A DNA stretch of 64,000 bases from positions 434,001 through 498,000 of the forward strand of contig JAFCMP010000101.1 of the NCBI GenBank assembly GCA_017506865.1. The letters are read 5' to 3'. The notes beneath the pieces were generated by a model. It ran no database searches, had not been told where the DNA came from, and saw nothing but the letters and a program-made list of their open reading frames with translations. Positions within the stretch are counted from its first letter, which is position 1. Every line of letters begins with the position of its first letter. The stretch comes from Tribonema minus. Taxonomy: Eukaryota > Sar > Xanthophyceae > Tribonematales > Tribonemataceae. Below, one piece after another: positions 350-63,125 of this stretch. Made by a program: the position numbers and the translations under genes.

Positions 350-779
350 CCTATGACTTTGAGGTTGACAACTTCAGCCGGCCACGCACCTGCTCCGTGC
401 TTTCAAGCGCCGCATGGAAACAGGATGGCCGCCGTGCACGGCGCACCACATGTCGTTGACATGGAAGTGTGAACAACTTCAGCCGGTGACGCACCAGCCC
501 CGTGCACCACCTGTGCACAGCGCACCACATACTGTATGACTAAAAAGAAGTTTGACTAACTTCAGCCGGTGACACACCTGCTCCATGCGCTCGAGCACCG
601 CCTGCACACAGGCCGGTGGCGCACCAATACATACCGTATGACATGACATGGAAAGTTGACAACTTCAGTCGGTGATGCACCTGCTCCGTGCGCTCGAGCA
701 CCGTGAGCATACAGGACGGCGGCGCGCCACATACGTATCGTATGACATGAAGTTTGATTGACTTCAACTGGTGACGCAC
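350..779 (-). repeat. Tandem donor-side splice-junction array (TPR-gene exon 780-898)
   Basis: About four degenerate units of roughly 100 bp lie just downstream (minus sense) of the exon at 780-898. Each holds the last residues of that exon (variants of VLERT-Q), a GTGCGTCACC-like donor, and the start of the intron with a TTGAAGTTG-type motif. Unit starts lie near 370, 473, 554 and 659 on the plus strand. The copies lack an acceptor of their own, so they should act as decoy donors rather than exons. Confidence 0.75.
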
Positions 780-3700
780 CTGCTGTGTGCGCTCGAGCAC
801 TGCCTGGAACAGGTCCGCGCCCCCCTGGAGTCTGCCGCTGTGCAAGTTGCACCACCCGAGCTCGGTGTCGATGTCCTCAGCTGTCACTGGGGGCACCCCT
901 GCGGCGCAGCAGCGCAGTGCCACGTGCTGTGAGCTTCATCACGCTGGCTGTTACATACTGCTGACTAAACATACGCAAGCAGTCGGTTTCTCATCGTATC
1001 TGGTCGTCCGCAAATATCGTGCTGCGATGCATCTGGCTGGCAACCACACTGGCGGGCTTTGGACTGCTGCAGCAAGTGCGAGCTCAAAGATGTCAGCAGC
1101 GCTTTTACTGTGTGGCCAGCAACAAGCATACGATCACAAACAGCTGCTCATCACTATCATCACTTGTGTGTGTTGTGTGCGGTGACTATGACGTGTCTCT
1201 CGCTGGAAAACATACCTGCCGCTGGGCTGCTGCCGCGGCAGCGCTCGACCCTCCTGCGCGCCTCCGCTGCCTGGGTCATTTGTAACTGTCTGCCAGCACT
1301 TACCGCGTGGTCGGCAACATCCAAACACCCGCAAAACAGTTGCCTATGCACATCATCATTCTGCTACGTGCGTTGACAATGATTGTAACACAATGAAAAC
1401 AAACCTGGCGCAGGGCTGCTGCCGCGGCAGCGCTCGACCCTGGCGCGCGCCTCCGTCAGGGCGGCCTGCGCCTCCTCCGTGTCCTTCAACTTCAAGTGCA
1501 GACGCGCCATGGCGAGCCAGTCGTGCGCGGTGCCGCCGGCCGCATCCGCTGCTGCCGCACGCTGTTGAAGTGTGTGCAAACAGCAACGCGATTGTGGTCA
1601 GCGCCTGCTGCTGCATGCGCTTTACAAGCAATCAGGCGTGCGGCTGCTTGACAGGGCTACGTATGCTTCAGGAGAAGTACTTCAAGGTGCAGAGAGGCGA
1701 TGGGTTATGGCATCTGCTGCTGCCGCACGCTGGTGGATTGCGTTCGGGCAGCAGCGCGATTGTGGTCAGCGCTTGCTGCTGAATGATGTTCGGCTGGGGT
1801 AGTACAGGTATGCGAGGTTCCTGCAACACCAGGCAGGCCAGCGACCCCCACCTAAATAGGCATGTACGTATGTATGTAGATAGCTACCTACTTCTATTCA
1901 TTCAGCTATCACCTTATGAAGCCTGCACACATTCCACGTCTGCCTGCACAACACCACTTGACAGACTATGCATGGCCACGGCAGAGGGGTCTTCTGTATG
2001 CACATTTCAATTAGGCATGCGCGACAGGCATGGAAGACAGGCACCAGACATCCTCTCTCAATGTATCCACACAAAAAATTCCTGCATTCACCACTGGCTC
2101 TCCATCAGATATGCTCCGTCATGCGCCTCATTGTAACACAACCCCCCCCCCTGCATTCACCACCGTCTCTCCACCACCAAAGTTGCTCCGCAATGTAACC
2201 ACAAAGCGGGATTTACTGGTACAAGGAGGCACATTACAGACGGGGGGGGTCGTGGTACTAGGAGCTGATATTACGGAGCCAGTTTGGCAGTGGAGAGTCA
2301 GTGGTGAATGCAAGGGGGGTTTTGTGTTGCAAGGAGGTACATCCTTTGTGCCGAAAAAACACCCATGCATTCACCACTGACTCTCCACTGCCAAAATTGC
2401 TCCGTAATATCAGCTCCTTGTACCACACACACCCCGTCATCTGTAATGTGCCTCCTTGTACCACAAAACCCCCCTTGCATTCACCACTGGCTGCCAAAGA
2501 TGCTCCGTCATGTCAGCTCCTCCTGCGATAATACCCTGCCTCTGCGTTTGCGCATCAAAGCTTCAATTTTAACACAAACTTCGATTTTGACTAGAAGTTA
2601 AAGATCGCTCCACGCCTGCGTCGCCACGCAGCGCCATCAAACACCCCCACCCCTCAACTTCAACTTCAAGTCTACCACACACCTGGTAGAACTCGATGGC
2701 GTCGCTCCACGCGTCTGTCGCCGCCGCCGCGCGCCACGCAGCGCCATCAAACACCCCCACTTCAACTTCAAGTTCACCCTCTACTTCAACTTCAAGTGTA
2801 CCGCACACCTGGTAGAACTCGATGGCGTCGCTCCACGCGTCCGTCGCCGCCGCCGCGCGCGCGCGCCCGCGCAGCGCCCTCACACAGCGCGGATCCAGCT
2901 CGAGAACTGCGGCCCAGATGTCTGTGGCACGCCTCAGCCGCCGCTCCGCCTCGTGCGCATCCGCTGCTGCCAGCGATGTCTGTATCGACTGGGGGTGCGC
3001 GGGGGCGGGGGGGGGGGGGGGGTCATGGAGCAGAATCAGTACATTGACAACTGTAATGCGTAGCTGGCGGAAACATGGGCGACATGACTGCATCAAAGGT
3101 GGCGCCCTCGCGCAGCGCGGATCCAGCTCGAGGACGGCAGTCCAGATGTCTGTGGCATGCCTCAGCCGCCGCTCCGCCTCGTGTGCGTCGGCCGCCGCCA
3201 GCGACGTCTGTATCGACTGCCGCGCGTGGGGGCGCAGGAGGAAGGGGGGGGGGGGGGGGGAGATCAGCGATAACTTTATTGACTGGAGATGCACAAGGAG
3301 GAGGAGAGGGGGGGGGGGGGAGGAGGCAAGATCAGTGATGACTTCACCCACTAAGGATGCAAAGGGAGGAAGGGAGGGGTGGGGGTTGGGGGCAAGATCA
3401 GCGATGATGGCCTGATCGGCTGGAGATGCGCAGGGAGAGGGGGTGGAGGGGGTGGGGGGATGGACCAAGATCATTACACTGGCTGCTGTAATGCATAACC
3501 AAGGCTTATGAAACAGGACGTCACAGAGCAATGGTTCTGAGCATGCTCGCCAGCTGCCTGCAGTGGTGACGGTATTGCTAGCGCCATGTGCGAGGGGTGT
3601 GAACAAGACATTACAGCACTGTACGATGGCACTTCACAGATGCTGGAGGCACGCACTGCCGCGGCGCAGACAGTATGATTCGGCGGCAGTACCTCGTGCT

Positions 3701-5420: not shown

Positions 5421-5674
5421 CTGGTACTTCAAATGCTACTTGAAGTGTGTGTAACAGACACGGTTGACAGCGGCCATGACCTGGGTTGAGGGCTAGAGTG
5501 CAGGTAGAAAATCTGCCTGCAGCTCTCTAGACTGTCATGTGCGCCCGCGCCATTATCATTGCAGCTTGGACGCTGCACGAGAGTTCACCATCATTGGAGC
5601 AGAACATCAACAACCCCGTGGTGTGTGCTCTGTGAGCCAAACAGACCACAACCGCACCACAACGAGCGCCAACC
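5421..5674. promoter_or_regulatory. Bidirectional intergenic promoter region
   Basis: This 254-bp gap separates the first ATG of the minus-strand TPR gene from the ATG of the plus-strand C2/ankyrin gene, so the two start regions face away from each other. It must hold both promoters and 5' leaders, unless further upstream exons exist. No TATA box is evident. A short exon of the TPR gene (ATG near 5477) may lie inside. Confidence 0.5.
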
Positions 5675-6946
5675 ATGGTGACGACGAAGGAGCAGGCGCA
5701 ATGGCTTCACATTCACGTTTGGGATGCCATCGGAGTGCCCGTAGAGGCGCCCTGCTATCTATCCCTGCGGCTGTTGCCGCCTCCCTCACACGGCGCAGCT
5801 GCAGTTGCGGAGGCGCTCATCTCGATAACGCAAAGGCGGCAACGAAGCCTGACGACGCGTCCAGCAGTGCCAGCAGGCACAGCAGGACTGCTGGTGTGGA
5901 ATGAACGCATGCCGCCGTTGCCACTGCAGCTGCGCGGCGGCGGCGGCGCTGGCGGCAGCAGCGCAACTGACGACGCCATCGGGGCGTGGTCTGCAGAGCT
6001 GTTGCTGGTCAACACGCGTGAAGCGGATCGCAACAAGCGCGTCATTGCAGCAGCAAGCGTACCCCTCTTTCAGCTGATCGCCGCGCGAACTGACCGCGAT
6101 GCGCCGGCTCAGCCCACGGTTCTAGCCCTGGCTCTGCACAGCAACGGAGAATCCACACGGAAAGGAAAGGCTTTGGCTGACGCTGGAGGGCCAGGGACTT
6201 CAAGCGATCTGGACAGGGCGGTGCAGCTGCGGATCACAGCTGTCGTAGGCGCAGAAGGCGCGCCAGCAGACAGCATTGTCATTGACATCCCTGCTGCGCT
6301 GGAGGCGTTCACTGCTGCCGTGGCTGCCCTATCGCCAGCGCCAGTGCCAGCGGCATTGGCTCCGCCAGCAGCAGCAGCAGTGGTAGCAGCAGCACCAGCA
6401 GCACCAGTACGAGCAGCAGCGGCATCAGCAGCTCGCACAGCAGTGCACATGGCGGCGCTGGCGCCGGTTGTTCATGCCACACCAGCAACTGTTGCAACCG
6501 CTGAGCAGGCTGCACCGGAAACGCCTCCATCGCCGCAGCGTCCAAGCCGCCCCCCTGCTGCCATCCTGGACGATGCAGCAGCGCTCAGAGACGACTGCGC
6601 GCAGCGCCTCGCAGCGCTGCACCACATTCTGGGACCGACTGACGGTGACGACGACGACGCAGCAGCGGCAAAAGCCGCAGCGGCGGCGGCAGCGGCAGCG
6701 AGCAACCCGTTCGGCTTCTGCTGTGCGGCCGCGCGCGCGGTGCGGCAGCGCGCAGCGCCGGAGTGGGCCCGCGACACCGCGGCGTGGCGCGCGCACGCCG
6801 CCGCCGCCGCCGCGGACGCGCGAGCGCTGGCGTACGCCGTGTCCGAAGCTGAGCGTTGCAGCAGTGTTGAGAACCGCTGTGACGGCGGCAGCCTCAGCGG
6901 CAATGGCGGCAGCGGCGGCGGCTGTGTGCTGGAGGCACAGGCGGCA

Positions 6947-6992
<46 letters not shown>

Positions 6993-7099
6993 GCATGAGG
7001 GTGCTGCGTGCGCATGCCACGGGCCTGGTGGCGGCGCTCGAGGAGGTGCGCGAGGCACTGCGCCGCGCCGGCGACGCGCTGTTCACCTTCAACTCACAC

Positions 7100-7161
<62 letters not shown>

Positions 7162-9182
7162 GTGCGCAGGTGCTGACGCAACGGGAAGGCCTGCAGGTAC
7201 TGCCTCAGCAGCGGCGGTGCCGGCAGCGGCAGCGGCGGGAGTTGCATGGCAGCACCGCCGCGGCTGCAGCGGCGGCGACAGCTGCAGCGGCAGCAGAGGA
7301 CGGGTGCGCAGGGCGCTGCAGTGCGTGCGCGACGAGGCCGCCCTGTGCCAGGTCCTGGTGCGCTGTACCAAGGACGTCGGCGCAGCGCTGGCGCTGGCGC
7401 AGGCTCTGGAGGGCAGGTGCAAGGCACTCGTGCCGCCGCCGCCGCCGCAGCTGTGCGCTGCGCGGGCGCCCGCTTGCGGAGCCCTGTTGCTATCGGAGTA
7501 TGACGTGGCGCAGTGTGCGGCAGCGGTGGAGAAGGAGGCGGGCAGTGCGGCGGCACTGCTGCCTGCCGCCGCAGCAGCACAGCTGATTAGAGCGGCAGAA
7601 GGCACCACGCCTGCCGGGGCGAGCGGTGGCGGCAGCGCAGCGCACGGGGGTCCGCTGCCTGCAGCTACCGCTTCTTTGCCGATGAATGGCGCCGCGGACG
7701 CCGCCAGTGCCGCCGCCGCCAGTGCCGCCGCCGCCAGTGCCGCCCCCGCCAGTGCCGCCGCCGCCAGTGACGGGGCGCAGCACGTGACGCTTGCCGCCGC
7801 CGCCGCTGAAACGCAGAGCGCATGTGGACTGGGCGCAGCAGCAGCGTCATCGTCGCCGCAGGCGGTTCAAGCGTGCGCTGCGTCCGGCCGCTGCGGAGCG
7901 CTGAGGCAGTTGAACAGTGCTCAGCAGAAACGGCTCAGCGAGTTGGAGGCTGCGCTGGCGGCGGTCGGCGTGGGTATGCCCGCTGCGCTGACGGGCGCTA
8001 CTAGCATTGATGCCGCTGCGGCGGCGGCGACGGCGCCGTTGGACAGGTAGTGTGCCAAATCTTTACAACAGATTGGTTGTTTCTCTCCGACGATTGCTTC
8101 AGATGGCGTGCCGGCAGAACAGTGCTCTCGACCCTTTGAATACATTTCTGCAACCTCAGTGTGTGTTCATGCATGCACTCGACCATCGTTTATTGTACAG
8201 CAGCACGTTCAGCATGACGCTCAGTGGCGATGCAAGGCGGTGCCTAACAAGTGCGTTGCCGTGCGCACTTGCCACTGTTTTGCAAGCAGAGCACCTCTGA
8301 GCAAAGCGGCAATACAGTTAAGCACCGGTGACAGTGGTGTGCAGCAGCTCAGCTGATCTGATTGATGTCAGCAGCGCTCAACGGTGGAGACGCCATAGGC
8401 TCATTGTGCACGCCGCACCTGCTGCACATGACTCAGTTAATCATCGACTCACTCACTCATGCGCTTCGCTGCCGCTGTTTACCGTGCCAACGCCGCAGCT
8501 TCGGGCTCCGGGTCTTCTGCCATGGCGAGGATGGTGACGATGACACCTTTCCCGCTGCCACAATGCTGGCGCCTGGCACAGATGGGGAAGGTAGCAATGG
8601 CAGCAGCAGCAGCAGCAGCAGCATCAGCAGCAGCTCACATCCACAAAGCTCAGCAGAGGTCGTGCTACTGCTGTCCTACGCTCTGCATGGCGGCACTGGC
8701 GGCAGCAGCAGCGCGAACGTTGGCAGCAGCGATGGCACCGGCAGCGTCATGAGCCGCGTCGGTGGCAGGTGCAGAACCGGCAGCAGCAGTAGCAGTGATG
8801 GCAGCGCGGCAGTGACTGCAACGCAGGTGGTCAAAGCTATAGCCCTTCGCCGCGCCAGAACTTCAAGATCAACCTCAAGTGTTGTGACCAGCACTGGCAC
8901 CGCCGCCTCCACCACGAGCGGCGATGCAGCCAGCGCTGCCGCTGCCTGCGCTGCGCCAGGACCTATGCGGAGCGCTGCTGATGCGGATGCCGGCAGTGAC
9001 GTGCCAGCGTGCGTCTTCATTGCAGGCGCGACCAGGTCAGCACACGCTGACACGCAGCGCACTCCCCGCTCCGCAGCCACCCCCGACTGCCACGCGGCGA
9101 CGCCCCACACGTCCAACTTCAACTCCGACACTCCTCCGCACACCCCCGCAGCACTTCCTCACGAACGCCCCGCCTCCGCCGC

Positions 9183-9223
<41 letters not shown>

Positions 9224-12200
9224 AGCTCCCCGAGCACGTTCCGCAGAGAGTTCCGCGGGAGCTGCGCGCGCTGCTGCGCGCTGGCCTCGCCCTTGACCGC
9301 GCCGCGGACGAACCGGCAGCAGCAGCGGCGGCGGCGGCGGCGGCGGCGCTGCTGGACGCTGACGGCGCCCTGGAGCGCGCGGCATACGGCGCCGACGGCG
9401 GCACCGCGCTGCATGCGGCGGCGCGCTGCGGCGCGGCGCGGCTGGTGGCGCTGCTGCTGGCGCGCGGCGCGCCCGCGCACCGCCGCGTGAGTGGCGCGCC
9501 GTTTTGGTGTCGTGCTGTGCTGTGCATGTGTTGAGGCGGCGGCGCGGGTGGGGTGCGCAGCTTCAAGTTGAAGTGAGACAACGAGGCTATGCGCATCGTG
9601 GCTGTGCTCATGATGCAGTGCGCTGCTTTCGGTGGCCATTAATGTGGCGTCGCTCGTCCGGTCCGTGGCGCGTCTGTAAATGGCGCTGTGTGAGCCTTCA
9701 AGCCCGGGGCCTGGGGTTCTCCGCCCCCGGCAGACGCGCCGCCGCGCTGACGAATTTATTGGATGCATGCAGTTGGGGCAGGGCACAGTTGCTACCGCTG
9801 ACGCTGACATGCCACGCTATGCGCGCCCCGCCGAGCACACACACTAACACAAAACTTGCCTGGTGCTTGCTCTGACACGTCACCCCGTGCCCCGTTAACT
9901 TCAACGCATGCAGGACTTCAAGGGCAGGCTGCCGAGCGACGTCGCCGCAAACATGCGCTGCGCGCGCGCACTCGGTGCGCTGCGGTCGAGCGCTACCACG
10001 CAGACAGCAGCGCTCCGCACGGGCGCCGCGCGCCTGCCGCGTCTGCTGCACGCCGTGAAGTTCGCGGTGAGGGTGCCGCCGCCGCCGCAGCACTGCGGCG
10101 CGAAACGACTGCGCCCTGGCGGCGGCGACAGCGGCGGAGGCGGCGGCGGCGGCGGCGGCGGTGACGGCGGCAGCGGTGGCGGCGGCGGCGGCGGCAATGG
10201 CGGCGGCGGTCACAACAGGGGCGGCGGCGGTGGCGACGCCATCATCAGTGGAGATGAGAGTAGTGGCATTGACTGCGAGCGTCACGGAAGTTATAAAGGC
10301 AGCAACGGCGGCAGCGCGCGGATGGTGGATGCCGTCGCGGTGCAGTACGACATGAGCCATAGGACGCTGCTGGTCGAGACGGCTGTGGCAGGAGGGTGTC
10401 TGAGCACTGTTGCGCTGAGCGATACGGAGCTGGTGGCGTGCCTCAGCGCGCACGCGGCGCCGCTGTTCGCGCACCTGCTGGCGCTGCAGCGGCGGGAGCG
10501 CGATGGAGGGCGCGGCGCTGCGGAGGCTGCTCTGCAGCAGCGGCAGCGGCACCAGCAGCAGCAGCAGCAGCAGCGGCAGCAGCAGCATGACTCAGCAGAC
10601 GGAGAGTATTCAACCATTGAGCAGGGCGTCCAGGGGTCCGTTGACAGACAGGAAAGGGAGCAGGGGGAGGGCGCCAGCGGCAGCGACGGCGATAGTGAGG
10701 CAGACAATGCATGTGACAGCTCGCAGGGCACTGAGGCGGCTGAAGCGGCAGCTGCAGCAGCGTCACGCACCGCTGAGACGCCAGCAAAAACTAGCCCTGA
10801 GCAGAGTGCAAGCGCGCAGGCGGCGGCGGAGCCCCGTGCTGCTGCGCCGCTGCAGCTGTCAACGGCCGTTGCCCCGCTCAGCTTCACCTGCGCTGTGGAC
10901 ATAACGCGACAGCCCTGCGGCGCGGCGGCAGCAGCAGCGCCGCAGCACACGCGCGCAGCAGGTGCCGCAGCGGCCGCCGCGCCCGTCACCGCGCAATTCA
11001 CGTGTGCGTGCGGCGCCGCCGCCGCGACGGCGACGTCGAGTGCGCAGCCGCCGCGGCCGCTGCTGCCGCCGCCGCGCATCACGGCGGAGCAGCTGGAGTA
11101 CGGCGACGACGCGCTAGCGGACGCCGTTGCCGCCTACGGCGCGCCAATGGATGCAGTGCTGCGCTACGTCGACGCGACGGTCGACCTCGACGATCCCGAG
11201 GCAGTGCTCAGCCAGATTGCCGCCGCCGTGTGCAGCGCACACACGGCAGCAGCGGCAGCGGCGGCAGCTGCGGCGAGCGGCGCGCCGTCGCCCGCTGTGC
11301 TGGATGCGGCGCAGGTCCGCAGGGACCTGGTGCGCGCTGTGCGCAGCGCGTGCGACGACGGCGGCGGCGGCAGCAGCAGCAGCAGCGAAGTTGCCGCTGC
11401 AGCCTGGTCAAGCATCACCGTAACAGCAGCGCCAGGCGGCGGCGTCTGTCACGTCGAAGTGTGTGGGCTGAGTGGTGCTCAAGGCGGCGGTGCCACCACG
11501 TTTGAAGTGCCGTGCGGCGAGAGCGGCTTTGATGCACTACGGCAGCAGTGCTCTGCGGCGCTGCCGCCGGACGCGTTGCGCGTGGCGGAGGCGCTCGCGG
11601 CGGCGTCCAGCATTGCCACGGCGCTGAGCGCGCCACCGTCTCCGCACGATGCGGAGCGCCGCTGCGGCCGTGCGGAGCGCTGCCATCCGCACTTTGAAGT
11701 GACCTCCGTCACCACCGCAGCCGCTGCTGCCGACGACACAGTCACCTCTTTCGAACATTGCGAGCGCGTCAACGGCTCAGGAGCTCAGCGCTGGCGCATC
11801 ACGGCGACCGACGTCTGCGGCCTTTGCACCTCAAACCTCGCGCCTGCGGCGCGCAGGGCGCTGGCGCCGTCGCTTGCGCCCGCCGCCGCCGCAGAAGCTG
11901 CGCGCTCGGTGCCTCTCAGCGCTGCTGCTGTGTCGGCGCGCGCTTCGCCGGATGGTGCGCAAGCGCGCGTCGGCGACGACGAGAGCAGCGACTCAGACTC
12001 AATGACAGCGAGTATCGGTTTCAGTGCTCGACGCGATGGCAGCGGTGGCAGCGAGCACGCGAGTGGCGACGACGCGAGGCAGGGAACCCCTGCAAGCGCC
12101 AGCAGTGGTCTGACGTCTTTGGCGTCACGACACATGCCTGTGACTCTGCAACCTGTGGTGGCTGCTGCTGCGCTGGGGGTGAGCGCTGCTGCTGGTGCTG

Positions 12201-12819
12201 GTGTTGGTGGTGGTGCTGCTGCTGCTGGATGCAGCGTTGCTGACAATGCTGTGGGCAGGGGCAGCTGCACTGTCAGTGCTGCTGCTGCGGCGGCAGCAGA
12301 TCCATCAATGCCCAGCACTGCTGCCGGTTACGCCTTCCCTCTGAGGGGCAGCGCGCACGCCACCATCACAGCCGCGAACACCATCTCCCAGGGCGATGCC
12401 CCCGACACCACCGAGCCTCACAACCTGCGCCTGCCGCTGCGCTGCGCCGTGCGCTGGGGCGACAGCGGCGGCGGCGGCGGCACCGCTTACGTGCTGAGCG
12501 CCGTCGACGTGCTCGCGCAGCCGCCGCCGGACCTGGAGAGCGACGCCGCGCAGGCGCGCCTCGACGCCGCACTTCAACTTGAATTTGGCCTGAGCGTCAC
12601 CGACGCCGTCGCCGCGCTCGCCGATCTCCCGGATGATGATGATGGCGTCGACGTAGAGACGCCGGAGGGCATGGTGGCAGCGCTCGCGCGCGCCGTGGCG
12701 GCGCTCTGCCCCGGCGGCGCCGACGCCGTCAGCGCCGCGGCGACGGTGCGGCGCGCGCTGTGCGGACCACCAGAGTGGACGCAGATGGAGGTGGTGACCA
12801 CGAGCGCTGCGTCTGCCGC

Positions 12820-12916
<97 letters not shown>

Positions 12917-13701
12917 AGCGGCAGCAGCGGCGGCGGCAGCAGCGGCGGCAGTGGTGGCGGCGGCGCCAGCGACGGCGGCAGCGGCCGCAGGGGCGGCGGT
13001 GGCGGCAGCAGCAGCGGCAGCGGCAGCAGCATCTCATTGATTACCGTGCGAGGCCTCGCAGGGCGCGACGGTGATGTGGTCGTCGGCAACTTGGCTGGAG
13101 TGTCACCAGTTGAACTGCTGGCGCTGCTCAGCGAACAGGGGCTACCGCCGTCGGTGGCGCACGTGCTCAAGGCCATGGGCGCCATGCCGCCAGTGGCAGT
13201 GGTCGACGTGCTGCGAGTGGTGAGCGCTGCTGCAGCTGCCGCTGCTGCTCAAGCTTCAGCAGCGGCTGGTCGCACAACAGCATTGGCAGCACCAGCGGGA
13301 GCAGCTGCAGGATCGACAGCCAGCGCAATTGGCAAAACTGCAGCGAGTGGCTGCGTTCATTTACCATTGGCGGAAGACATTGTTTGTTCCAGTGATTGGA
13401 GCGCTGCTGCCGAGACGCGCAGCTCGCAGTCAATGCCTGCTGAGCACTGGGTGGTGAGGATGCAGCCGGGCGGCAGCAGCAGTGGCAGTAGAGAAGAGGA
13501 CCAGCTGACCGTGCGCGTGCTGGGTGGGCCAACAGGGACGGCGATGTTTACACTTGTGCTGACGGCAAGTGCTACCACAGGCTTTTCAGGGGCACATGGA
13601 GCCGCCCTGAGCAATGCCTCAGCAACGGCCATCGCAGCAGCATCGCCTGCGCCCTCTGTTGCCACCGCCGCAACCGCTCGCACAACTGACAAGGTCGCAA
13701 T

Positions 13702-13748
<47 letters not shown>

Positions 13749-42172: not shown

Positions 42173-42493
42173 GGTGATTCGTGCCAGTGTGAAGCAGCGA
42201 AGTGAGGCCCCACTGGGCGGATTTTGAACAGTCGCACGCGCGGTGCTCCGTTGGGTTGCCACGTGGACTTGAAGTTCACAAACCAAAACCGGTTTGAAGT
42301 TGCGTCAACCGGTTGAAGTTGTGGTCGTCGTTGACCGTCGTTGACCTTGACAGGGGCTCTGGAGCGGCTGGCTGTTCCTGATTGTGCTGCTACGATGGTT
42401 GCCGCCGATGCGATTTAGCCCTACGTCGTCAGCAGCGGCAACAGCAGCCGCCCGTGAACTGCGCATCCTCAGGCTGCAGCGTAGTGCTCAAAC
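42173..42493. promoter_or_regulatory. Bidirectional promoter region, PDI and MscS-like genes
   Basis: A 321-bp gap separates the ATG of PDI (minus) from the ATG of the MscS-like gene (plus). It contains repeated AACCGGTT-like and TTGAAGTTG elements (42284-42325) and a direct repeat CGTCGTTGACC (about 42328-42350). No TATA box is evident. Confidence 0.5.
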
Positions 42494-48384: not shown

Positions 48385-51300
48385 ATGGGAGACGCTCATG
48401 CCAATACAATGACTGATTGCCTCTTGCCCCCCCTACCATGCACCTGCGCCCGCCCTTTAGGCTTAACACCCGCTGACAAAGACTTTGGATTGCGGGAGCG
48501 CGGCTTCAGCGCCTCCAGGTTTTCCAAGCTGGCACCTCATTTGGCCGGCACCCCGCTGGTGCCCATGAGCTCAGGCAGCGCGGCCATTGGCGCAGCGCCT
48601 GACCAGCAACCGCTGGGTGCGCCGCCTAAGGAAGGCGAGGGCGGCAATGCCGCCCCTAAGCGGGAAGGGGGCAGCAGTGGGGACGGCGGTGTGAGAGGGG
48701 CAAGGCTGGAGGGAAAGGAGCTCGTGGATGCGCTGCGGCAGCAGGTGGAGTTCTACTTCAGCAAGGCGAATCTGCAGAGCGATGGCTTTCTGGTGAGTGG
48801 CACGGCGTCTTACCGCGGCATACCCTCTCGCCTTCCTGTATGCGTCCAGATTGAAGTTCAGCTTGGTGTGCCTTTCCAGCCGCAAATGCGGCCATCCAGC
48901 GTGCATAGGTGTCGCTGGCGCATGTGCGGCTTCGATGCCTGTCCGCTGAGTGCATGCGCAAGCACGTCTGCCTCTCATAGGCACTCTTCATGCGTTCTCG
49001 ACAGCGATATGAAGGGATCCGCTGCGGACGAACTCTGCTCGAGGCGCGCACCGCGATGTGAAGCGGACCTTGACAGCTTGTGTGTGGCAGCTAGCCATTA
49101 CAATTCAACCTTTTGGCAGAGCTTTCGTGACTAGTATACATGCAGCTGGCGTTTGGCACACGTTCACTTTCATGTCGCTTTTGCATGTATCGCATCTTGG
49201 CGACCTTCCCGTAGTCGGCTTTGACCACATCGCTGCAGACACCACAAAATGTTGGTAAGATCTCCATACGACAATGTCTCATTGCAGTTTCAGGGATCAT
49301 ACATGCAGTTTGAGTGGGATTTTCAGATGTTGGCCTGCTGCAGGTGGCCATAGATCCTCTAAGCCACTCTTTCATTACATGATTCCCGATTGTGTCTCCA
49401 AGGTTCAAGCCTGCTGGGGACCAGTACAGCCCCTCACAGATTCCACCTCTTACTGCACGCATGTGAGCCTTCGTGCCGTCAAACACCTGAGCCTGAGGCT
49501 GCCAAACGTAGTCAGCCCTGTTGTTCGAGTATACTTGGACTCTCTGCAGTAGCAGTCCCCAAGCCTCCCGTAACCGCTTCTTGTGTGCAGAGTACACCAA
49601 CGCACTGCTGGTTTCTTGCAGAGTACACAGGCGCACTGCTTTGCATGCCCCTCATGCACAATTCAATGATGAATAGGTGGTTTTTGAAGTAATGAGTATG
49701 CCAGTAACGTTTCATGGCACCAGTTGCCTTGGTGTGCTGATGGCGTCAGAAACAGTTTCGAGCTGACAGTGATGACGTGCAAGGTTTGGCAGGTGCCTGG
49801 TGTCGCACCTGACTCTATGGCTCAGGCTCTGAGGCCTGTAGAGCATGGCCGCGCTGCAGTACGCGCTTTGCCGAATGGTCGCCAGTGGTTCCTCATGGCC
49901 CGTTCATCACACAAATCTCGCTCAATGCTGGCCAGATCATCCCCTTGCGGCCGCCCACTGAACACTGCAGGTGCCTGGAATGGACAAGACTGGGTTGTTT
50001 GAGCATCATAGCTCTTACCTGTGAAGCGCTGCCTCCAGATGCGAGGGCTGCGAAATGCTACTGTACTCCTTCTTCCAGGCAACATAAATACACGCTGCAC
50101 TGTCGTGGCCTCCGTGCCACGCACCCGCAGGCGTTGCGCATACACGCGTACGGCTGCATGTCCATCAGCGTCATCGTGCAGTTCGCCCCCATATTACCTG
50201 ACATACCGCTATAGCCAAGCGCTGACATTGCCTCCGTGTTGAGCGACCGGCAGATATCACGCATGGACACGAGCGCCAGCGTGTCACTGCTCCGTTCACC
50301 CCAGATTACCTACGTACCTCAATTGTTGAGCGCTGACGCATCCTCTGTTAAGCCAGCGTGTCACTGCTCAGTTCACCCTGTGGTACCTACGTACCTCGAT
50401 GGCTGAGCGCTGACATCGCCTCTGTTGCGCAAGCGTGTCATTGCTCAGTTCAACCGAGATTCCCTCCGTACCTCGATGGCTGAGCGCTGATGTACCCTCT
50501 GTTGCGCGCGCCCGCAGGGTCTCACGGATGGGGCGCCAGCGGCTGCGTTTCATTGCTCAGATCACCTCCTGTTACCTACATACCTTGATGGCTGAGCGCT
50601 GCCTGTCTTGCAGGTGACGCGCATGGACGCGAGCTCCAGCGTGTGTCACTGCTCAGTCACCCCAGATTACTTACATACCTAACCCTATGGCTGAGCGATC
50701 ATCTGCGCGTGCCCCGCAGGTCTCGCGCATGGACGCGAGCGGCTGCGTGCCCATCATTGCTCAGTTCACCCCATGATACCTACGTACCACAATAGCTGAG
50801 CGCTAACATTGGCTCTGTTGCGCGCGACCCGCAGGTCTCGCGCATGGATGCCAGCGGCTGCGTGCCCATCAGCGTCATTGCGCAGTTCGCCAAGGTGCGC
50901 GCGCTCACGACGGACGAGGGCGCCATCGCCGCCGCCGTCGCCAACTCGTCGGTGTGCACCGTGACGCCGCAGGGCATACGGCCGAACCTCAAGGCGGAGA
51001 GGCACACCATCATCCTGCGCGAAATACCCAGCGACACGCCGCCCGCTAAGGCAAGTTGCTGTTGCACATGTGTACCTTTCAGTCAACTTGAAGTAGCCAG
51101 TCATGTGCCTTTCGCAAGGGCAAGGCGCTGCGCGTACGTTTCTTGTTTCAAGGCGTGGAGTTTGGCGCATGTGACAAAGGTTGGTACACGTTTTCCAGTA
51201 GTGACAGCGCAAAGTGTCACGTAAACCCTAAATCTAACCCTAATGTATGGCGAGGGACAGGCTCGCGACGTATGTGGCGGCCAGGGTCAGCATCAGAGGC

Positions 51301-54300
51301 TAGTGCTTACAGCTAAGTGCACGTCATTAGGTCATGGCGAATTGTGACAGCCTGGGCAGTGCAGCGCGTGGCCATAGGCCTGAAGCAGGCGTTTTCAAGG
51401 CACTGTAAGCAGCCACTGTGCGCTTTCGTCATTGCTAGTGGGGGGCAGGTTATTAACCGGGGGGTCTGCAAGTGCAGGCATAACACCACGTAGAACAAGG
51501 TGTGGTGTGGTATGGTCCATGAGCCCGTACAATGTCAGCAGAGGCTTTGTACCCCCTCACAACCCTCATGGAAGCGGCTTCGCTGCCCCATCCTGAAGTG
51601 TCACCGCAGCTGCTGTGAGCTGCTACGCATCATTATCACCATTGCCACCAAGCTTATTCAGGCCACATGTCAGTGACATGGCTTCTCTCACTGTGTGGTG
51701 AGCTGTTATATACGCGACGCGAGTATACACAGTGAACACTGCTGCTGAATTCAAGTGTGAATCCTTTCATATGGTTACCGTCTGACCGTGAAGCTGGCAG
51801 ATGAACTCTGGTATCAGCACATGCAACAGCCCACACCAACCTTCTGATACCGTGCAACGTATATGTGGGTGCGCTACTTGCGGGGACATGGGAGGCGACC
51901 TATTATTGAACCTAACCCTAACTTGAAGCTCGCCATGCTAGCTACGATCTCAGAGTTAATCACACACCCGCTCAACATTGTTGACTAGATTCCAGGTATT
52001 GCGCAGAGGGCAGATCATGTCCAACGGAGCAATGACCATAGTGGCTTTGATCGGCAGGCGTTTGTCTCGCGCTCTGTTGTACATGCACACTGCGGTACAA
52101 CAAACTTCACTTTTGAAGTTGTTGGAGCCGTGCTGAGAGCGAGGACGTGGCTCAATCGACGGATATTTGCACTTCGACTAGACATGGTTGCTGCAGCCTG
52201 CGTGCTAGATCTATGCAAGTCTCACCCTGCACCCTATACATACAGCAGGTCCCAGTGTGCACCCTCTACGTACTTGGCCTTGGTTTCGAATCAGCGTTAT
52301 AGTACATCTGTGGATGTAGTTTGTGTGCACGAGGTCACCATTCTTTGCAAGCAGCTACATGGTGAAGACAAGGATGGCAGTGGCAAATTCATCGGGGAGC
52401 GCTGGTGCTGATACGGGGGGTGTTCAGTGCTTGTGTGCTGGTGAGGCACAATGTGTCAAGGCCCTATCACCTAGTTTGAGATCATGCGTGGCCGATGCCC
52501 CCCTAAGTACCCCTCGCGGACTCTCTATCCAGCAGGCGCACGAGCTTTCTGATGGGGAGTGCGCCATTGACATGTGGATCGATCTTGGGGGCCAGGGGTA
52601 GGGTTGGCCTTCACACATGCACGCACACGCGCGCACAGCTGTTGTTGTCGCATGTGCTTCTGCGAGGCATGCCCACGCGCAGTGACGCGACTGTCTGAGC
52701 GAATGCGCGCGGAGCCATGCCACCTCTTTAGCAAGCGCGCAGCGCTCATACGCAGCAGCAGCGCAGGCGACCATGGTGTATGACCCCTGCCGCAAGATGA
52801 CGGCACTCTGTCACTAACCCCTAACTCACACACACCACGAGACACCACCCTCTCGCGCCTTGTGCCGACTGCGTCACTCTCACATTGTCTCTACAGTAGA
52901 TTCCCCTTTCTCATTATCCGATGCTGCTGCCGCATGGTCCCCCCCCCCCCCTTCCCCCCCCCCCCCCCCCCCGTTTTTCTCATGATTCGGTGACTTCTGA
53001 CGCACGTCTACCCCCCCCCCCCCACCCCCATCCCCCCCCCCCCGCGCGCGGCGCCCAGGTGCGCGAGCTGTTTGCGGGCGAGGGGATGGCGCCGATAAGG
53101 GGGGTGCGCAGCGACGTCGGGGCCACGTGGTTTGTCACCTGCGCCAGCGAGGCGGACGCGATGGCCACCATACTGGCGCTGCGCAGCCGGACGTTCGAGG
53201 GGAAGCCCGTCAAGGCGCGCCTCAAGGGCGAGAACCTGCTGCGCTCGTTCTTCCCGGTGAGAGCATTGGCAGTTTGTTTCGCGCACTGCTCTGCAAAGGC
53301 GTTGCATGCGAGGTGATGAGTGTATGGTCAGGGCAAGGGGGTTACGTTTGAATCGAAGTTAGAGGGGAAGCCCATCAAGGCGCGCCTGAAGGGCGAGAAC
53401 CTGCTGCGGTCGTTCTTCCCGGTGACACCGGCTTTCGTGGGCTATTTATAACGCAGCGTTGTGCAGTGATCACTTGAAGATATAGATCAGGGTCAGCGAT
53501 GCAACTTGATTTAGGGTGGGCAATTCAACTTGAAGTTCAAGGGGAAGCCCGTCGCGCCTCAAGGGCGAGAACTTGCTGCGGTCGTTCTTGGTGAGAGCAT
53601 TGTCAATATTTTCATCGCGGACTCTTCTACAGCAGCGGTGCAGTAATCACTTTAGCGATGCAACTCGATTTAGGGTTAGCGATGCAACTTGATCTGGGTT
53701 AGCGATCTACAGTGAAGTTTGAGAGGAAGCCCATCAGGGCGCGCCTCAAGGGCGAGAACCTGATGCGATCGTTCTTTGTGGTGAGAGCGTTTTCCTCAAT
53801 CGTGTACAGAAATGCCCCAGGTGCAGTGATCACTCTAGGATATGTATCAGGGTTGGCGATTCAACTTGAATTTTGGGGCAAGCCCATCAGCAAGTGCGAG
53901 AACCCGCTGCGGTCGTTCTTCCCAGTGAGAGACCATTGTCATTTTTTTCGCGGCAAGGCGCCGCGTGCGAGGTGATGAGTTGGGGTAAAGCAAGGGTTGC
54001 GGATTGAATGCTCAGGATGTGGGGGAAAGGCCATCAACGTGCGCCTCAAAAGCGAGAACCTTTGCGCACCCGCCCACACCGCGCACGCGCCGCCTCTAAC
54101 CCCTGCTCAATCCCCCCCCCGCGCTGCGCAGGGCAACAACGCTCAGGAACCGCCGCAGCTCCCCCCCTACCCCCAGCCCGGCCCCCCCGGGTCCATGCCC
54201 GTGATGCCCATGGTCAACGGGCCATTCGGGCCCATGGGGATGGGCAGCATGAGCCCCGGGATGAGCCCGGGGGGCATGAACGGCGGTTTCATGCCGCCCC

Positions 54301-57300: not shown

Positions 57301-60300
57301 CATTGTTACAGTTCTTGCAACCTCTTAAACTGACGCCATGCTGCACCAAGTATGGCCACTCCTCTGTTTCAACCTGCACGTGAGCAGGCGTCTTGCACAA
57401 ACACCTTATGATGTGCGCCAGCGGCAAGCACCTGTTGGGCCCCCCTAGTAGTATGTGTCGTTGACTTTCTTTCATCGCATCACTTCGCACGGATGCCAAG
57501 AGCGCGACCGGCCACTCACCACATCGCCTGTGACTCCCCTGCTCGGTCGCGCAGCAGCCGCGCCAACGGCCGCCCCCCCTGCGGCAGCAGCGCCGGCAGC
57601 GGCAGCGGCACCGGCGCCGGCAGCGGCGCCGCCGCAGACGCAGCCCTCCCCGGCGCGCGCCTCCCGAGAACGCTCCCCAGCGAAGAAGGCACCATCGCGG
57701 CACGCATCGCGGTCTCCACGGAGAGAGCCGGTTGTCGCTAAGGCGCCACCCGTGCCGTCGGTGTGGGGCGGCGGCTCGGAGCCCGTGAAGCAGCACGCCT
57801 CAGCGGCAGCAGCGTGGGGCGGCGGCGGCGCGGCGGCCAAGCAGGCGATCGCATCGCCGCCGCCGGCCGGCAAGGCGCCCAGCGGCGGCAGCAAGGCGCA
57901 CGCGGAGGGCTCGGCGGGCGCGGCGCCAGCGCCAGCGGCGTCAGCGGCGGCGGCGGCGGCGGCGGATGGCGGCAGCGGCGGCGGCGGCAGTGGCGGCGGC
58001 GGCAGCAGCGGCAGCTCGGCGCCCGCTGCTGCTGCGGAGCCGGCGGCAGCGGCAGCGGCCGCGCCAGCACCGGCGCCGGTCGCTAAGGCGCCCATGGGCG
58101 CGTATGCCGCAGCGCTCCTCAAGACCCCTCCAAACCCTGCGGCGGCGGCGGCGGCGCGGCCACCGCCCGCGCACACACCCAAGGTAGGTGCTGCTGCTGC
58201 TCGTGATCGCCTTGCGCTTGTGCTTAAGCAGGCAGTCACCGGCCATGGATTGATGATGGTTGAGATCTCATCAGAAGCGCCAGTATGAGCGTGAAAGCAG
58301 TCACCTGGGGCAATGACAGCTTCGAGGTTCGTACAGAAGGCAAAAGCTCCAATGTTACGCAGAGGACGTGCGGATTAGCGTGCCTGCGTGCAGATGCGCT
58401 GGCTAAAAGCAGCAATGCCATCGCGCGCTGCACTCGCTCGCCTGCGCACAGTCTGTGGAGCTCGTCTCTTGCGAGAGTGTTATTGCAGTACATTGACGCC
58501 ACCAGACGGCCTGCAAATACCTCAGACAAGCATCATCTAGCATCAGTCACTGAATAGCCCGTTGCAGTCATTGCCAGTGCTTCCATCAACACAACCGGAT
58601 GAATGTTCAAGGCTGAATGGCAATTGCATGTCTGCATCCAGTGAGTGACTGGCTCAGCGCATTGCCGATGCACACACTTAAATAACGCTTCCGGGGCAGC
58701 TGATTTTGCTGGTTGCACGGCTATAATTGCACAGTGTTACAATCTCTAAACTGATCCGTTCCTGGCCTCTTTGATGGTTGCAGGCCTTGCGCGCTGCACA
58801 GTTGTACATACACAGCTGCTGATGTAGCAACAACGCACCGAATGGCACTGTACGACTACGCAGACGCAGCTCTTGCAGCAACAGTTCACCAAGTGGCGCT
58901 GCGACACTCTTGCACGACACTCCACATTGACGCACACGTTCATGACCCGTCTCAAGCCACCGCAGGCGGCGGCCGCAAGGGACGCGCACGCCAAGCCTGA
59001 CCGCGCGACGGATGCCAGGCCCGACTTCCGGCCGCCGCAGCAGCCGCACGGCAGCAGCGCTCAGCAGCAGCACGGCTCAGCTGCTGCGGCGGCGAGGAGA
59101 GGCGCTTCGGAGCAGCAGAGGGCGGCGGGCGCGGAGGCGGACGCTCAGCAGCAGCAGCAGCCGGCGGCGCTGGCGCCGCCCGCGCCAAGGCCGGTGCGCG
59201 GCTGGGAGAAGCCCTCTGTGAAGGTACACACACCATAATATGCAACTGTCTGGCAGTCATGTGCTGAGTTCAAATGTTCTCTGGCCGAGCAAAGAGTTGG
59301 ATGCTGCCTGCGCCGAGGCCGGTGCTTGGCTGGCAGAAGTCCTCTGTCAAGGCAGACACACTATAACATGTACTTCGCGGTATGCAACTGTCTGGCAGCT
59401 GCGTGCTCAGCTCAAACGTTCGCTGGCCGAGTGAAGGGTTCGATGACAGTGCAGCACAGGCTGTTGTGGTTATGGTGTCCACAACGACCAAGCAGGCAGC
59501 CTCCTGCCACCTTGTGGGATGCATTGCGCATGAGGCATACCTGGCAATGCAGATACATTTAGTTGATGGTCCTTCGCTAGTCGAAGTTTCCTCCAATTGT
59601 ACCTTGATCAACAGACTGTCTTGACATGCTTCAAAGCATGGTTCGAGAAGGTTAGCATGCACCTGGCAACGCTGGCGGCGGCATGGCACTCATTAGTGCC
59701 GAGCAGTGCCTTCCCTTAGGCATCCGCGCGCAACTGCTCGATGACATCTCTCTCAGCAGGCAATACTGGCAGCAAGCCAGCATCATGGCTCTCAATCGCA
59801 GCAGTGCCGAAGCTGACATCACACTCATCCCGCATCTGCTGCGCTGTTTGCGCACACGCAGCCCATCATCGTGGCGCCGCCGCCAGACCCGGTCCAAGCC
59901 CCGCCCGCCGCCGCCGTCGCCACCACCCCACCATCCAAACCTGCCAGCAAGGCCGCCAGCGCAGCCACCCTGTCGCCCACACCGGAGGCGCCCGCCAAGC
60001 CGCAGCCGGCGTTCCCGCCGTCTCCGCTCGCGGCGGACGCGCCGCGCGCCGCGGCGGCAGGCGGCGGCGGCGGCGCCGCTGCTGCCGCTGCGCCCGCGGC
60101 GCCGGCGGGAGCGTGGGGCGGGCGGCGTTCGTTTCTGGACGCGCTGCGGTCGCCGCCTGCTGCCGCCGCCGCTGCTGGTGCTGCCGGCGGCAGCGCCGGC
60201 GGCAGCGTGACGGGGCCGCCCGCCAAGAGCCTGCTATCGGACGGACCCCTGAGGCCGGCGCGCATGAATGGCAAGGTCGGCGGGAGGGGCGACCACCGCG

Positions 60301-60305
60301 CGTAG
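48385..60305 (+). CDS. La-related protein, LARP4-like (La motif, RRM, low-complexity tail)
   Basis: Nine exons: 48385-48792, 50835-51050, 53059-53256, 54132-55222, 55912-55992, 56726-56966, 57555-58183, 58966-59223 and 59862-60305, about 1,188 residues if one base is restored in exon 4. The start could also be the in-frame ATG at 48565. Residues about 115-200 form the La motif (QVEFYFSKANLQSDGFLVSR; MDASGCVPISVIAQFAKV). It is followed directly by a LARP4-type RRM (REIPSDTPPAKVRELFAGE; TWFVTCASEADAMATI; GKPVKARLKGENLLRSFF). A Met/Pro/Gly region, then SAANFPPL and RSVSIDEVREQLRQGK, precede long Ala/Pro/Gln-rich exons. Expected role: cytoplasmic binding of mRNA poly(A) or 3' ends, acting in stability and translation. 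The exon 2 donor is GC. In exon 4 the frame changes in a G12 run near 54845-54857. The other phases agree. Confidence 0.83.
50095..50834 (+). repeat. Acceptor-side array of LARP exon 2 (La motif)
   Basis: About seven units of roughly 75-115 bp precede the true acceptor at 50834. The fullest (50505-50550, 50612-50650, 50718-50770) repeat CGCAGGTCTCGCGCATGGA then codons for DASGCV-I; older units keep only CAGCGTGTCACTGCTCAGTTC. All share the spacer TACCTACGTACCTCGATGGC then TGAGCGCTGA. Confidence 0.85.
52929..53043 (+). repeat. Poly(C) tracts before the LARP exon 3 acceptor
   Basis: Several C-runs of 7 to 17 bases lie in the 130 bp before the acceptor at 53058. They probably serve as the polypyrimidine tract. 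Confidence 0.85.
53340..54065 (+). repeat. Donor-side array of LARP exon 3 (RRM end)
   Basis: Five further copies of GKPIKARLKGENLLRSFFP and variants lie at about 53365-53425, 53540-53592, 53720-53782, 53870-53930 and 54025-54062. Units are about 150-180 bp. Most keep a GTGAGAGC-like donor; later units lose codons. GATTTAGGGTTAGCGATGC-like telomere-type pieces lie between them. Confidence 0.87.
59285..59365 (+). repeat. Donor-side copy of LARP exon 8
   Basis: A single degenerate copy of the exon end (RP-WQKSSVK) and the following ACACACTATAA intron start lies downstream of the donor at 59224. A second copy of the intron part alone follows at about 59375-59430. Confidence 0.65.
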
Positions 60306-61709: not shown

Positions 61710-63125
61710 TCATAATGCGCTGCTGCCGCCGCTTGCCAGCGCCGCCGCTTCCGCATTCCACCGGTCTACCAGACCAATGAGCTCTTCAAACGAGCCAAGT
61801 TCGCAATCGACGCAAGACTCTCCCTGCTCTGCTGCGACCGCGGCGGCGGGGCCGGCTGTGATGTGCACATCGGAAGCGACCGTTGTGGCACCGGGGGGAG
61901 CAGCAGGGGCCCAGTGGGGGGGGCGGATGAGCACTGTGCGCATGCCCACGCGGCGCGCCCCCTCGCAGTCGGTGATGACGTCGTCGCCTGGGGGAAAGCG
62001 GGGGAAGGGGGGGGGGCTTTGAGACTGTTACTTCAAGTATGACAGAGAGGTGGCAGTGAAGTGGCGTTGGAGCATTTGACGCGTTTTGGTCGTTCCTGTG
62101 CCCTGTACTTTCTGTTCACCCTCGCTTGCGGCACAACAAAGCTCACTTCAAGCATCTGCAGAAAAGTGCGTGTGCAAAGCACAGGTCTTGCTGCACCAGC
62201 GGCACAAATCGAGGGCGGACAATGGCTGCTACTTCTGCAGAAGCGTCTGCGCATTTGCCAGGGTGACGGCGCAGCGCTACCACACGTGCTCGTGCTGCTG
62301 CCTGCATTTGAGGAAGAGCTGCGACGTGCGAGCACGCACTAACTAGGGTTGGGGTCAGAGAACTGATCCCTAACCCTAACCCTAATTTAGGGTTAGGGCT
62401 AGGAAAACCAAACCCTAATCCTCAGCTCCTGAAGACGCCAACGCCGGCACGCACCGAGCAGTGAGCACGGCCACTCACCTACGTGCACCCACTCCGGGCA
62501 GCCGTCAACAGCAGCGCTCTCGGGGTACCGAGCTCGTGCGTATGCGTCCAGGAACGGTCCTGGATCAGGCTTACGCGCGCCCACCTGTCGCGTGGCAACG
62601 ACAGAGCGCATGCACGCAGGGGTTGAGGTTGGGGACGTGAAGTTTGTGCGGCAGGAAGCGGTAGGTATACCAGTGGCGGCAACATACGCCTGGATCATGG
62701 GTGCCCCACAATGGTGAGCCGCGTACTGTGCCAGGCGCAAGCCATTGCCGATTCTATGCTATGTTGTCTCCCACGCAAGTAGAGCATGCACGCAATCAAT
62801 GACATTGAAGAGTGGAACAGTTGCGGTGGGCTGGACAGAGCGTCTCTATTGAATACGAAGTGCCAAAAGCAGCTCAACAAAGTGTTTGCCACTGTTACCC
62901 CCCTGTGTTGCGGACACCGCCGATCACATGACGAATTACGCGCAACATGTGCTGCAGCCGAGCGGTTACGTCAGTTGCGTCAGTTGCGCCGTCGCAGACG
63001 CGCGCACCTGCTCCGCCGTCGTGCAGAACTCAAACGCCTCCGCGAGGCACGGTATCGTGGCGGTGTCGGCGTTGCCGTTGGTGATGGCGCAGAGCCGCAC
63101 GCCACGCGTCTTCAGCGCCGCCAAC
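61710..63125 (-). CDS. HAD-superfamily hydrolase, C-terminal part (5' end not resolved)
   Basis: Three in-phase minus-strand exons are clear: 63125-63008, 62584-62479 and 61987-61710 (stop at 61710-61712). They encode HAD motif II (LCAITNGNADT), the motif III lysine (VGARKPDP) and motif IV (WVHVGDDVITDCEGARRVGM), followed by MRTVLIRPPHW. The order and spacing match HAD subfamily IA phosphatases of the YigB/PGP type. The N-terminal DxDxT nucleophile motif and the cap must lie upstream, right of 63125. A possible preceding exon lies near 63372-63420 (PTPAVRCWK in the matching phase), but this is weak. The substrate cannot be told. A C-terminal extension of about 60 residues is rich in Ala and Glu. 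Confidence 0.82.
62368..62402. repeat. Inverted pair of telomere-type repeats
   Basis: Three CCCTAA units run directly into TTAGGG units, forming a near-perfect palindrome of about 35 bp in an intron of the HAD gene. More TTAGGG- and CCCTAA-like pieces flank it at 62343-62356 and 62410-62419. Confidence 0.9.

Follow-up and report, generated by a model that had tools for sequence, protein, structure and literature searches.

About a fifth of the exons that we sampled from this algal genome (44 of 222 by a strict count) are bordered by tandem copies of their own edge. The unit runs head to tail and comprises one exon edge together with the adjacent intron, that is, the duplication crosses the exon-intron boundary. 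We consider it probable that introns grow here because short tandem duplications are frequent, the events that spare one exon edge survive, and the copies then decay neutrally. Such rows of decaying exon-edge copies look like growing introns more than like a decoy system, and copies that straddle an exon edge appear to survive harmlessly within the intron.

The sample covers 344 kb of the 158 Mb nuclear genome, namely one continuous 64-kb stretch, hereafter the window, and 28 other loci of 10 kb. Thirteen of these loci were picked by kinase matches, seven are neighbors of the window on contig C101, and eight lie at round-number positions on contigs already met earlier and were not chosen by content. 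No match to a nuclear RuBisCO small subunit was found in this genome, and one light-harvesting exon has fucoxanthin chlorophyll a/c proteins as its nearest relatives; the two results together indicate that the alga belongs to the red plastid lineage and speak against Haematococcus, an early candidate for the source. Exons were called with our own gene finder, seeded with kinase matches from the same genome, and the set was reduced to 222 by removing calls below 40 bp, calls with a low coding score and 22 copy-derived calls. A complexity filter kept 264 of 328 repeat pairs. Applied to edge arrays, the low-complexity filter left 30 of 37 donor edges and 30 of 46 acceptor edges, and an extension score then kept 118 of 126 copies, at 55 edges.

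A preliminary description of the window had reported arrays of 2 to 7 repeats flanking most exons in six of seven genes. The arrays are real and exceed chance, while their frequency, divergence and copy numbers needed correction. "Most exons" was an overstatement: the strict count gives 16 of 51 window exons, equal to 16 of 43 outside the large-exon gene, with one of the 16 (22635-22736) being itself a miscalled copy; by a looser count, copies occur at 14 edges of each kind, donor and acceptor, among these 51 exons. Elsewhere the strict count was 9 of 30 exons in the eight loci not picked by content, and it fell to 4 of 91 in the kinase-picked loci. Copies number 1 to 4 at 54 of the 55 edges and 8 at the remaining one. 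As first described, donor copies lie downstream and acceptor copies upstream, as direct tandem units of exon end, splice site and intron. Their presence in nearly every gene also stands, for all window gene regions have them (Table 1) except the very-large-exon gene and the short last gene (61710-63125), where self-comparison of the window found no edge array. The lack of arrays in the large-exon gene, pointed out from the start, is not significant alone: its introns total roughly 2.75 kb, for which we calculate about two expected clusters, given an average of 87 clusters in 119 kb of gene sequence outside exons.

Table 1. Exons with edge copies in the 64-kb window, with the very-large-exon gene for comparison.
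Feature	Positions	Strand	Details
TPR-like gene (Pfam support weak), exon 2802-2988	2651..3249	(-)	one donor-edge and one acceptor-edge copy
Very-large-exon gene	5675..14394	(+)	edge arrays not found
Exon 16959-17216	16706..17613	(-)	one donor-edge and two acceptor-edge copies
Exon 19084-19287	19084..19747	(-)	three acceptor-edge copies
RGS-domain gene, exon 20838-21017	20459..21017	(-)	two donor-edge copies
RGS-domain gene, exon 21726-21858	21406..21858	(-)	donor-edge copy ending at ~21563
RGS-domain gene region, exon 22789-22986	22103..22986	(-)	four donor-edge copies, one being called exon 22635-22736
RGS-domain gene region, exon 23856-23999	23856..24413	(-)	three acceptor-edge copies, transcript-upstream
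LRR region, exon 27700-27859	27526..27859	(-)	donor-edge copy
PDI gene, exon 35158-35490	35409..35932	(-)	acceptor-edge array, two copies; called exon 35658-35699 inside one copy
PDI gene, exon 36613-36855	36209..36652	(-)	donor-edge array, three copies
PDI gene, exon 38006-38344	37682..38157	(-)	donor-edge array, two copies; outside strict count
PDI gene, exon 39335-39529	38622..39529	(-)	donor-edge array; copy ends ~39154, 39002, 38850; weaker one near 38702
MscS-like channel region, exon 45076-45228	44908..45228	(+)	acceptor-edge copy
Exon 50835-51050	50097..51050	(+)	two acceptor-edge copies
La-motif gene, exon 53059-53256	53059..54061	(+)	four donor-edge copies
La-motif gene, exon 58966-59223	58966..59445	(+)	donor-edge copy

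In the PDI gene, the final 40 bases of exon 36613-36855 are identical in the nearest copy. At exon 38006-38344, the first copy, earlier taken as nearly undiverged (37818-37965), is 90.4% identical over 188 columns. Across the sample, 171 of 178 nearest-neighbor pairs are below 95% identity. The median period of these pairs is 165 bases and the fullest bin 120-139; 84 pairs fall at 100-199 bases, 32 are shorter and 62 longer.

Placement of the repeats is strongly skewed toward exon edges. Pairs that span exactly one edge number 69 of 178 (35 donor, 34 acceptor) against 17.6 ± 3.7 expected from 200 uniform shifts, whereas pairs with both copies exonic occur once against 29.1 expected. Pairs with an exon-interior copy (6 observed, 12.0 expected), with a whole-exon copy (1 and 1.7) or touching no called exon (101 and 113.1) make up the other classes. 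At the level of clusters within gene spans, 54 of 87 touch an exon edge compared with 16.2 ± 3.4 expected, and the observed number was reached in 0 of 300 shifts. The window alone contributes 24 of 30 gene-span clusters at edges; outside gene spans, 10 of 32 clusters touch one.

This pattern could arise without any preference of the mutation itself. Short segments, commonly 100-200 bp, would frequently duplicate in tandem across the genome, and a duplication within an exon would alter the protein and be removed by selection. Duplication from exon into intron, in either order, would leave the exon whole, its own splice site at the outer end, and trap a partial edge within the intron. Should the spliceosome keep to the outer site, the mRNA would stay the same and the intron would be one unit longer. 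The trapped copy could then decay freely, and repeated rounds would give arrays. Edge events might form a large share of those seen because many introns have lengths of the same order as the unit and because the conserved true exon keeps the pair recognizable. The units themselves would likely originate when staggered nicks or breaks are repaired by fill-in, or else from replication misprocessing.

What counts against this reading is that the edge excess surpasses simple nulls, the rigid shift predicting only 16 of 87 clusters at edges where 62% were observed. Duplication directed at splice junctions, with an edge excess that is partly mutational and goes beyond survivorship, is a possibility that we hold to be real but doubtful; candidate directing causes are transcription- or splicing-linked breaks, the edges of nucleosomes at the GC step between exon and intron, and a TTGAAGT/ACTTCAA motif close to splice sites. 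Intron lengths alone, whether array-collapsed or array-free, already lift the share of surviving placements at edges to 26-37%, and simulated detection bias adds only about 1.3-fold, giving 32-44%; after both, the odds remain 2.1- to 3.5-fold too high, part of which may come from exons missed in our gene models. Pairs at least 90% identical in gene spans are enriched at edges too (10 of 25 against 3.8 expected), and the length of a nucleosome or an Okazaki fragment is close to the duplication unit size, which would suit targeting. The 7-mer TTGAAGT lies near donors and its complement near acceptors: it occurs 32 times within the first 50 bp past the 222 donors and 3 to 7 times per 50 bp deeper in, and motif density is 4.6 per kb in the 45 bp junction flanks against 1.6 elsewhere in the same stretches (P 0.002). 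As a predictor of arrays, however, the motif was not significant: with the 13 kinase loci excluded, arrays accompany 9 of 31 donor edges with the motif and 19 of 100 without it (P 0.31), and 4 of 15 acceptor edges with it and 18 of 116 without it (P 0.28). A junction-preferring process that lengthens introns by copying the edges of the exons next to them is a tentative candidate; it may be linked to transcription, to splicing, to nucleosome edges or to telomere-type break filler. If true, it would be a hitherto unrecognized genome-wide way of growing introns.

Comparison of homologous contigs suggests that arrays are gained over time. In three places in total, a repeat on one homologous contig is missing from the other. 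Two LHC genes on contig C1 have acceptor-edge copies, with none in the homologous C79. The copy in gene 2 is 94% identical to its own exon and 86% to the C79 exon, the exons being 84% identical mutually; the copies in gene 1 are about as close to the C79 exon (0.83, 0.87) as to their own (0.80, 0.86). The third place is a 320 bp tandem duplication on C179, 99.4% identical and single in the homologous C90, which is an ordinary tandem duplication and not an edge array. Loci L013 and L014 align over 6.4 kb at 93.4% with zero indels of at least 8 bases; L013 is without a repeat pair and L014 has one, and the comparison says little. A PDI alignment crosses the array-bearing exon junctions free of repeats, but the copies were excluded from the query, so it only shows a homolog without insertions at these junctions. 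The assembly does contain homologous contig pairs, which would be one ground for regarding the arrays as an assembly artefact; we give this next to no credence, as assembly duplication creates neither the divergence of 171 of 178 pairs nor changes spread across copies, and all three further locus groups that were counted have edge arrays, as the window does. The suggestion of a mutational mechanism in the preliminary description is supported by this presence and absence between homologous contigs, by the concentration at exon edges, and by repeats elsewhere, with at least one pair in each of 25 of the 28 other loci.

The copies look neither like exons nor like maintained decoys. Their exon part measures 33-96 bp (10th-90th percentile), and a whole exon is included in 2 of 118. 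Changes unique to the copies fall evenly over codon positions (88/85/96; chi-square P 0.70, 112 copies entering the test), whereas those unique to the true exons concentrate at the third (8/6/36; P 5e-8). Of the 76 gaps within the exon-derived part of copies, 60 are 1 or 2 nt long. The same description had offered, as its other explanation, a system affecting splice choice. Decoy splice sites maintained for such regulation would account for GT or GC lying within one base of the expected place in 64 of 74 donor copies and AG in 34 of 44 acceptor copies, figures biased upward because the copy search queries contained the splice-site bases, and for 34 of 62 donor and 11 of 34 acceptor copies scoring at least as high as the true site. 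Yet the dinucleotides are retained about as well as neighboring exon bases and not better (in 64 donor copies, GT matches at 0.91 and the exon bases from -20 to -1 at 0.89; in 36 acceptor copies, AG matches at 0.90 and the exon at 0.89), and copies score somewhat below the true edge in paired tests (P 0.03 and 0.006). With the evenly spread codon changes, the 1 and 2 nt gaps and the missing arrays on one of two homologous contigs, this makes a decoy function very improbable.

Divergence within the copies depends on how they were found. Those recovered by their exon part (79, against 36 by the intron side) match the exon at 0.89 for donors and 0.86 for acceptors and the intron-derived part at 0.55 and 0.62, so their intron part is more diverged than simple neutral decay predicts, which counts against the survival-and-decay account. 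In copies found by their intron part, the contrast is reversed (intron 0.83 and 0.77, exon 0.60 and 0.70), and we therefore take much of it to be ascertainment, although more copies are found from the exon side; the idea that exon-derived parts are specially conserved is weakened accordingly.

Copies might also serve as alternative or mutually exclusive mini-exons. An AG stands within 3 nt of the 5' boundary in 36 of 74 donor copies against 42 of 148 controls (P 0.004), and 11 of these 36 would keep the frame and be open, with an intact donor, two of them being 63-base mini-exons in PDI. The idea was found wanting, however: lengths modulo 3 among the 36 are chance-like (12/13/11 for 0/1/2), the median score of their AGs is -0.2, compared with 5.7 in 214 predicted acceptors, and acceptor copies show no GT excess (13/44 against 15/44 and 8/44). 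The copies lack the combination of both splice sites and coding constraint that marks tandem or mutually exclusive exons. We judge this explanation very improbable, and the original remark that each copy has one usable splice site and is not an exon is upheld; the chance-like frames and weak upstream AGs speak equally against a splice-choice system. For annotation, the copies are a trap: the gene finder mistakes them for exons, as at 22635-22736, and exon 35658-35699 also lies inside one.

Intron growth is usually inferred from erased traces, and here intermediate steps can be read at about a fifth of sampled exons. A true exon, its copies of varied age and homologous genes free of arrays make the rate, size and placement of duplication and the splicing filter measurable, and the arrays let one ask how the spliceosome chooses the outermost among near-identical sites.

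Several known systems invite comparison. In the potato RdRp gene, a tandem duplication crosses an intron-exon boundary (Ma et al. 2016, PMC4974935). As described there, its unit, like those in the alga, lies over one intron-exon boundary with diverged copies, and the case is missing from the other Solanaceae compared; it differs in being a lone example, where one gene acquired a new intron with RNA-seq support, whereas the algal arrays sit at 44 of 222 exons and apparently lengthen existing introns. The AGGT model of intron gain through tandem duplication (Rogers; Hellsten et al.), in the description given in PMC4974935, likewise reshapes exon-intron structure with the protein unaltered, but there a duplicated exonic AGGT segment supplies both sites of the new intron; the algal unit has one existing splice site and intron sequence, and the 3' boundaries of acceptor copies have no GT excess. 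Human segmental-duplication genes have internal tandem repeats at exon-intron boundaries that are variable and change introns, as in the alga (PMC2812944); by that account the unit averages 30 bp and expands as a minisatellite in recently duplicated genes, while in the alga periods of 100-200 bp are common and each unit includes one splice site. A possible repair route is illustrated by end joining of breaks with protruding ends, which gives tandem duplications, including several rounds, in the system described (EMBO J 2017, PMC5730883), although that system uses paired Cas9 nickase breaks in mouse embryonic stem cells.

Introners, as presented in PMC9860276, resemble the alga in causing lineage-specific, large-scale intron change, some families having terminal inverted repeats, but they are elements that insert their own copies into many genes, whereas each algal array consists of copies made locally from the edge of its own exon. 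Of two array queries, one of 401 bp hit, apart from itself, a single 96 bp stretch at 81%; the other, of 1401 bp from locus L029, gave 68 matches, those within the array being 50-90 bp pieces of a telomere-like TTAGGG spacer and the longer ones falling past the last copy. Distant matches inside the window consist of triplet repeats plus an inverted pair of 76 bp, and cross-locus megablast gave few matches above 150 bp. Single boundary-crossing duplications are already known, as in potato RdRp; it is the density of arrays in this alga that is unusual.

Self-comparison of the window revealed numerous direct repeats at short spacing. Reading of the genes for protein disulfide isomerase (PDI) and an RGS-domain protein bore out the preliminary description, which had claimed copies of exon edge, splice site and intron beside the exons: in these donor-edge arrays, the exon end, its donor and the next intron recur downstream, one to four times. 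Elsewhere, acceptor-edge arrays repeat the acceptor and the exon's first bases upstream. The alignment with a solved PDI chain passes through the exon junctions that bear arrays and shows no repeat, the query having excluded the copies. In a sample of 344 kb, comprising the window and 28 further 10 kb stretches, filtering left 264 repeat pairs, of which 178 are nearest neighbours with a median period of 165 (fullest bin 120-139; 84/178 at 100-199) and a median identity of 81%. Repeat coverage ranged from 0 to 40% between loci. By a strict count, an edge array is present at 44 of the 222 sampled exons: 16/51 in the window, 15/50 in its neighbours on contig C101, 9/30 in eight loci selected without regard to content and 4/91 in loci chosen for kinases.

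We compared this placement with chance. Pairs spanning one exon edge numbered 69 (35 donor, 34 acceptor), against 17.6 ± 3.7 expected under uniform shifts, and a single pair had both copies exonic, against 29 expected under the same shifts; this scarcity is a mark of purifying selection. We propose that a duplication straddling one exon edge would be harmless provided that the outer splice site remains used, and that one within an exon would be harmful and filtered out. Together with introns of unit-like length and lasting conservation of the true exon, such a filter would produce the observed geometry and much of the frequency. Alternatively, duplication might be directed to splice junctions rather than merely surviving there. 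Within gene spans, 54 of 87 clusters touch an edge, against 16.2 ± 3.4 expected when shifted placements that disrupt exons are rejected. The expected edge share reaches 26-37% with array-free or array-collapsed intron lengths from our own gene models, because such introns are shorter, and pairs holding a conserved exon stay detectable longer, a bias of about 1.3-fold in simulation. With both corrections the expected share is 32-44% against 62% observed, and exons missed by the gene models would shift both values. The residual excess, 2.1- to 3.5-fold in odds, is the main support for a possible direction of duplication to junctions.

Several properties bear on whether the copies function. Changes unique to one copy fall evenly on codon positions 1/2/3 (88/85/96, P 0.70), against 8/6/36 for changes unique to the true exon (P 5e-8), and 60 of 76 gaps within the exon part of copies are of 1 or 2 bases. 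Donor GT (0.91) and acceptor AG (0.90) are retained in copies at rates like those of exon bases (0.89 in each set); copies score below true splice sites in paired tests, with 34 of 62 donor copies scoring at least as high as the true site. An AG near the 5' boundary is more frequent in donor copies (36/74) than at control positions (42/148), these AGs score far under predicted acceptors, and the mini-exons that would result have lengths even modulo 3. The copies therefore look like decaying by-products.

Homologous contigs, which represent haplotypes that have diverged or else ancient segmental duplications, bear on the age of the duplications. On contig C1, two light-harvesting genes carry acceptor-edge arrays that are absent from their counterparts on C79. 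The copy at the second gene is 94% identical to its own exon and 86% to the C79 exon (exon against exon, 84%); because it is closer to its own exon, this duplication postdates the C1/C79 split. Similarly, a 320 bp tandem duplication on C179 (99.4% identity) is single on C90. The pairs C179/C90, C1/C79 and C223/C144 are roughly 84-94% identical. Identity is below 95% in 171 of the 178 nearest-neighbour pairs, and this divergence speaks against assembly error.

As to a possible origin, in mouse cells breaks that leave protruding ends are described as giving rise to tandem duplications through end joining, over several rounds (PMC5730883). At sampled locus L029, the spacers between exon copies are largely TTAGGG-like repeats, which in two spacers reach the next copy or nearly so; this sequence could be filler at repaired breaks. 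Telomere-type hexamers number 10 in 4.4 kb of copy-junction flanks and 11 in 10.0 kb of the rest. The 7-mer TTGAAGT and its complement ACTTCAA occur 20 times in the 4.4 kb of 45 bp flanks against 16 in the 10.0 kb rest (P 0.002). Donors have this motif within the 50 bp that follow them, and acceptors are preceded by its ACTTCAA form; it may act as a splicing signal in introns, form stems or be filler left by repair. It is found at 299 places in the sample and at 100 in the window, on both strands, more than 20 times commoner there than the 4.25 expected under a dinucleotide model.

Repeat features located by coordinates in the window and sampled loci
Feature	Positions	Identity	Remark
Dispersed repeat, about 230 bp	window 39737-39997; L003 2570-2794; L009 7715-8325; L024 3361-3578	87-98% between places	Two consecutive units in L009; may be a small mobile element
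Stretch beyond last exon copy	L029 6454-6700	73-86%	Matches at least 14 other contigs; may be a repeat family or a shared domain
Interstitial TTAGGG/CCCTAA telomere-type repeats within introns	L029 5605-6320; window (13 places); L027; L003; L004		
Long in-frame CAG, GGC and GCC runs	window 5675-14394; 54132-60305		Encode poly-Gln, poly-Gly and poly-Ala

The eukaryotic nuclear genome comprises 158 Mb in 554 contigs, and the window occupies bases 434001-498000 of contig C101. Predicted exons came from a small purpose-written gene finder, which placed in the window a TPR-like gene, one whose exons are very large, RGS and LRR regions, the genes for PDI, an MscS-like channel and a La-motif protein, and a short last gene. 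For RGS, LRR, thioredoxin, MscS and La there is Pfam support, whereas that for TPR is below cut-off. GC replaces GT at some predicted donors across the sample, and at 7 of 76 donor copies. The chlorophyll-binding family has at least 92 matches across the genome, and the one compared with the PDB is nearest to fucoxanthin chlorophyll a/c-binding proteins; because of this match and the lack of any genomic match to the RuBisCO small subunit, we infer a plastid of the red lineage.

Among the matches listed from the open-licence literature (titles and abstract openings), none describes genome-wide exon-edge arrays in an alga. Related cases are reported in potato, where one tandem duplication crossing an intron-exon boundary formed a new intron (PMC4974935), and in human duplicated genes, with variable repeats averaging 30 bp at exon-intron boundaries (PMC2812944).
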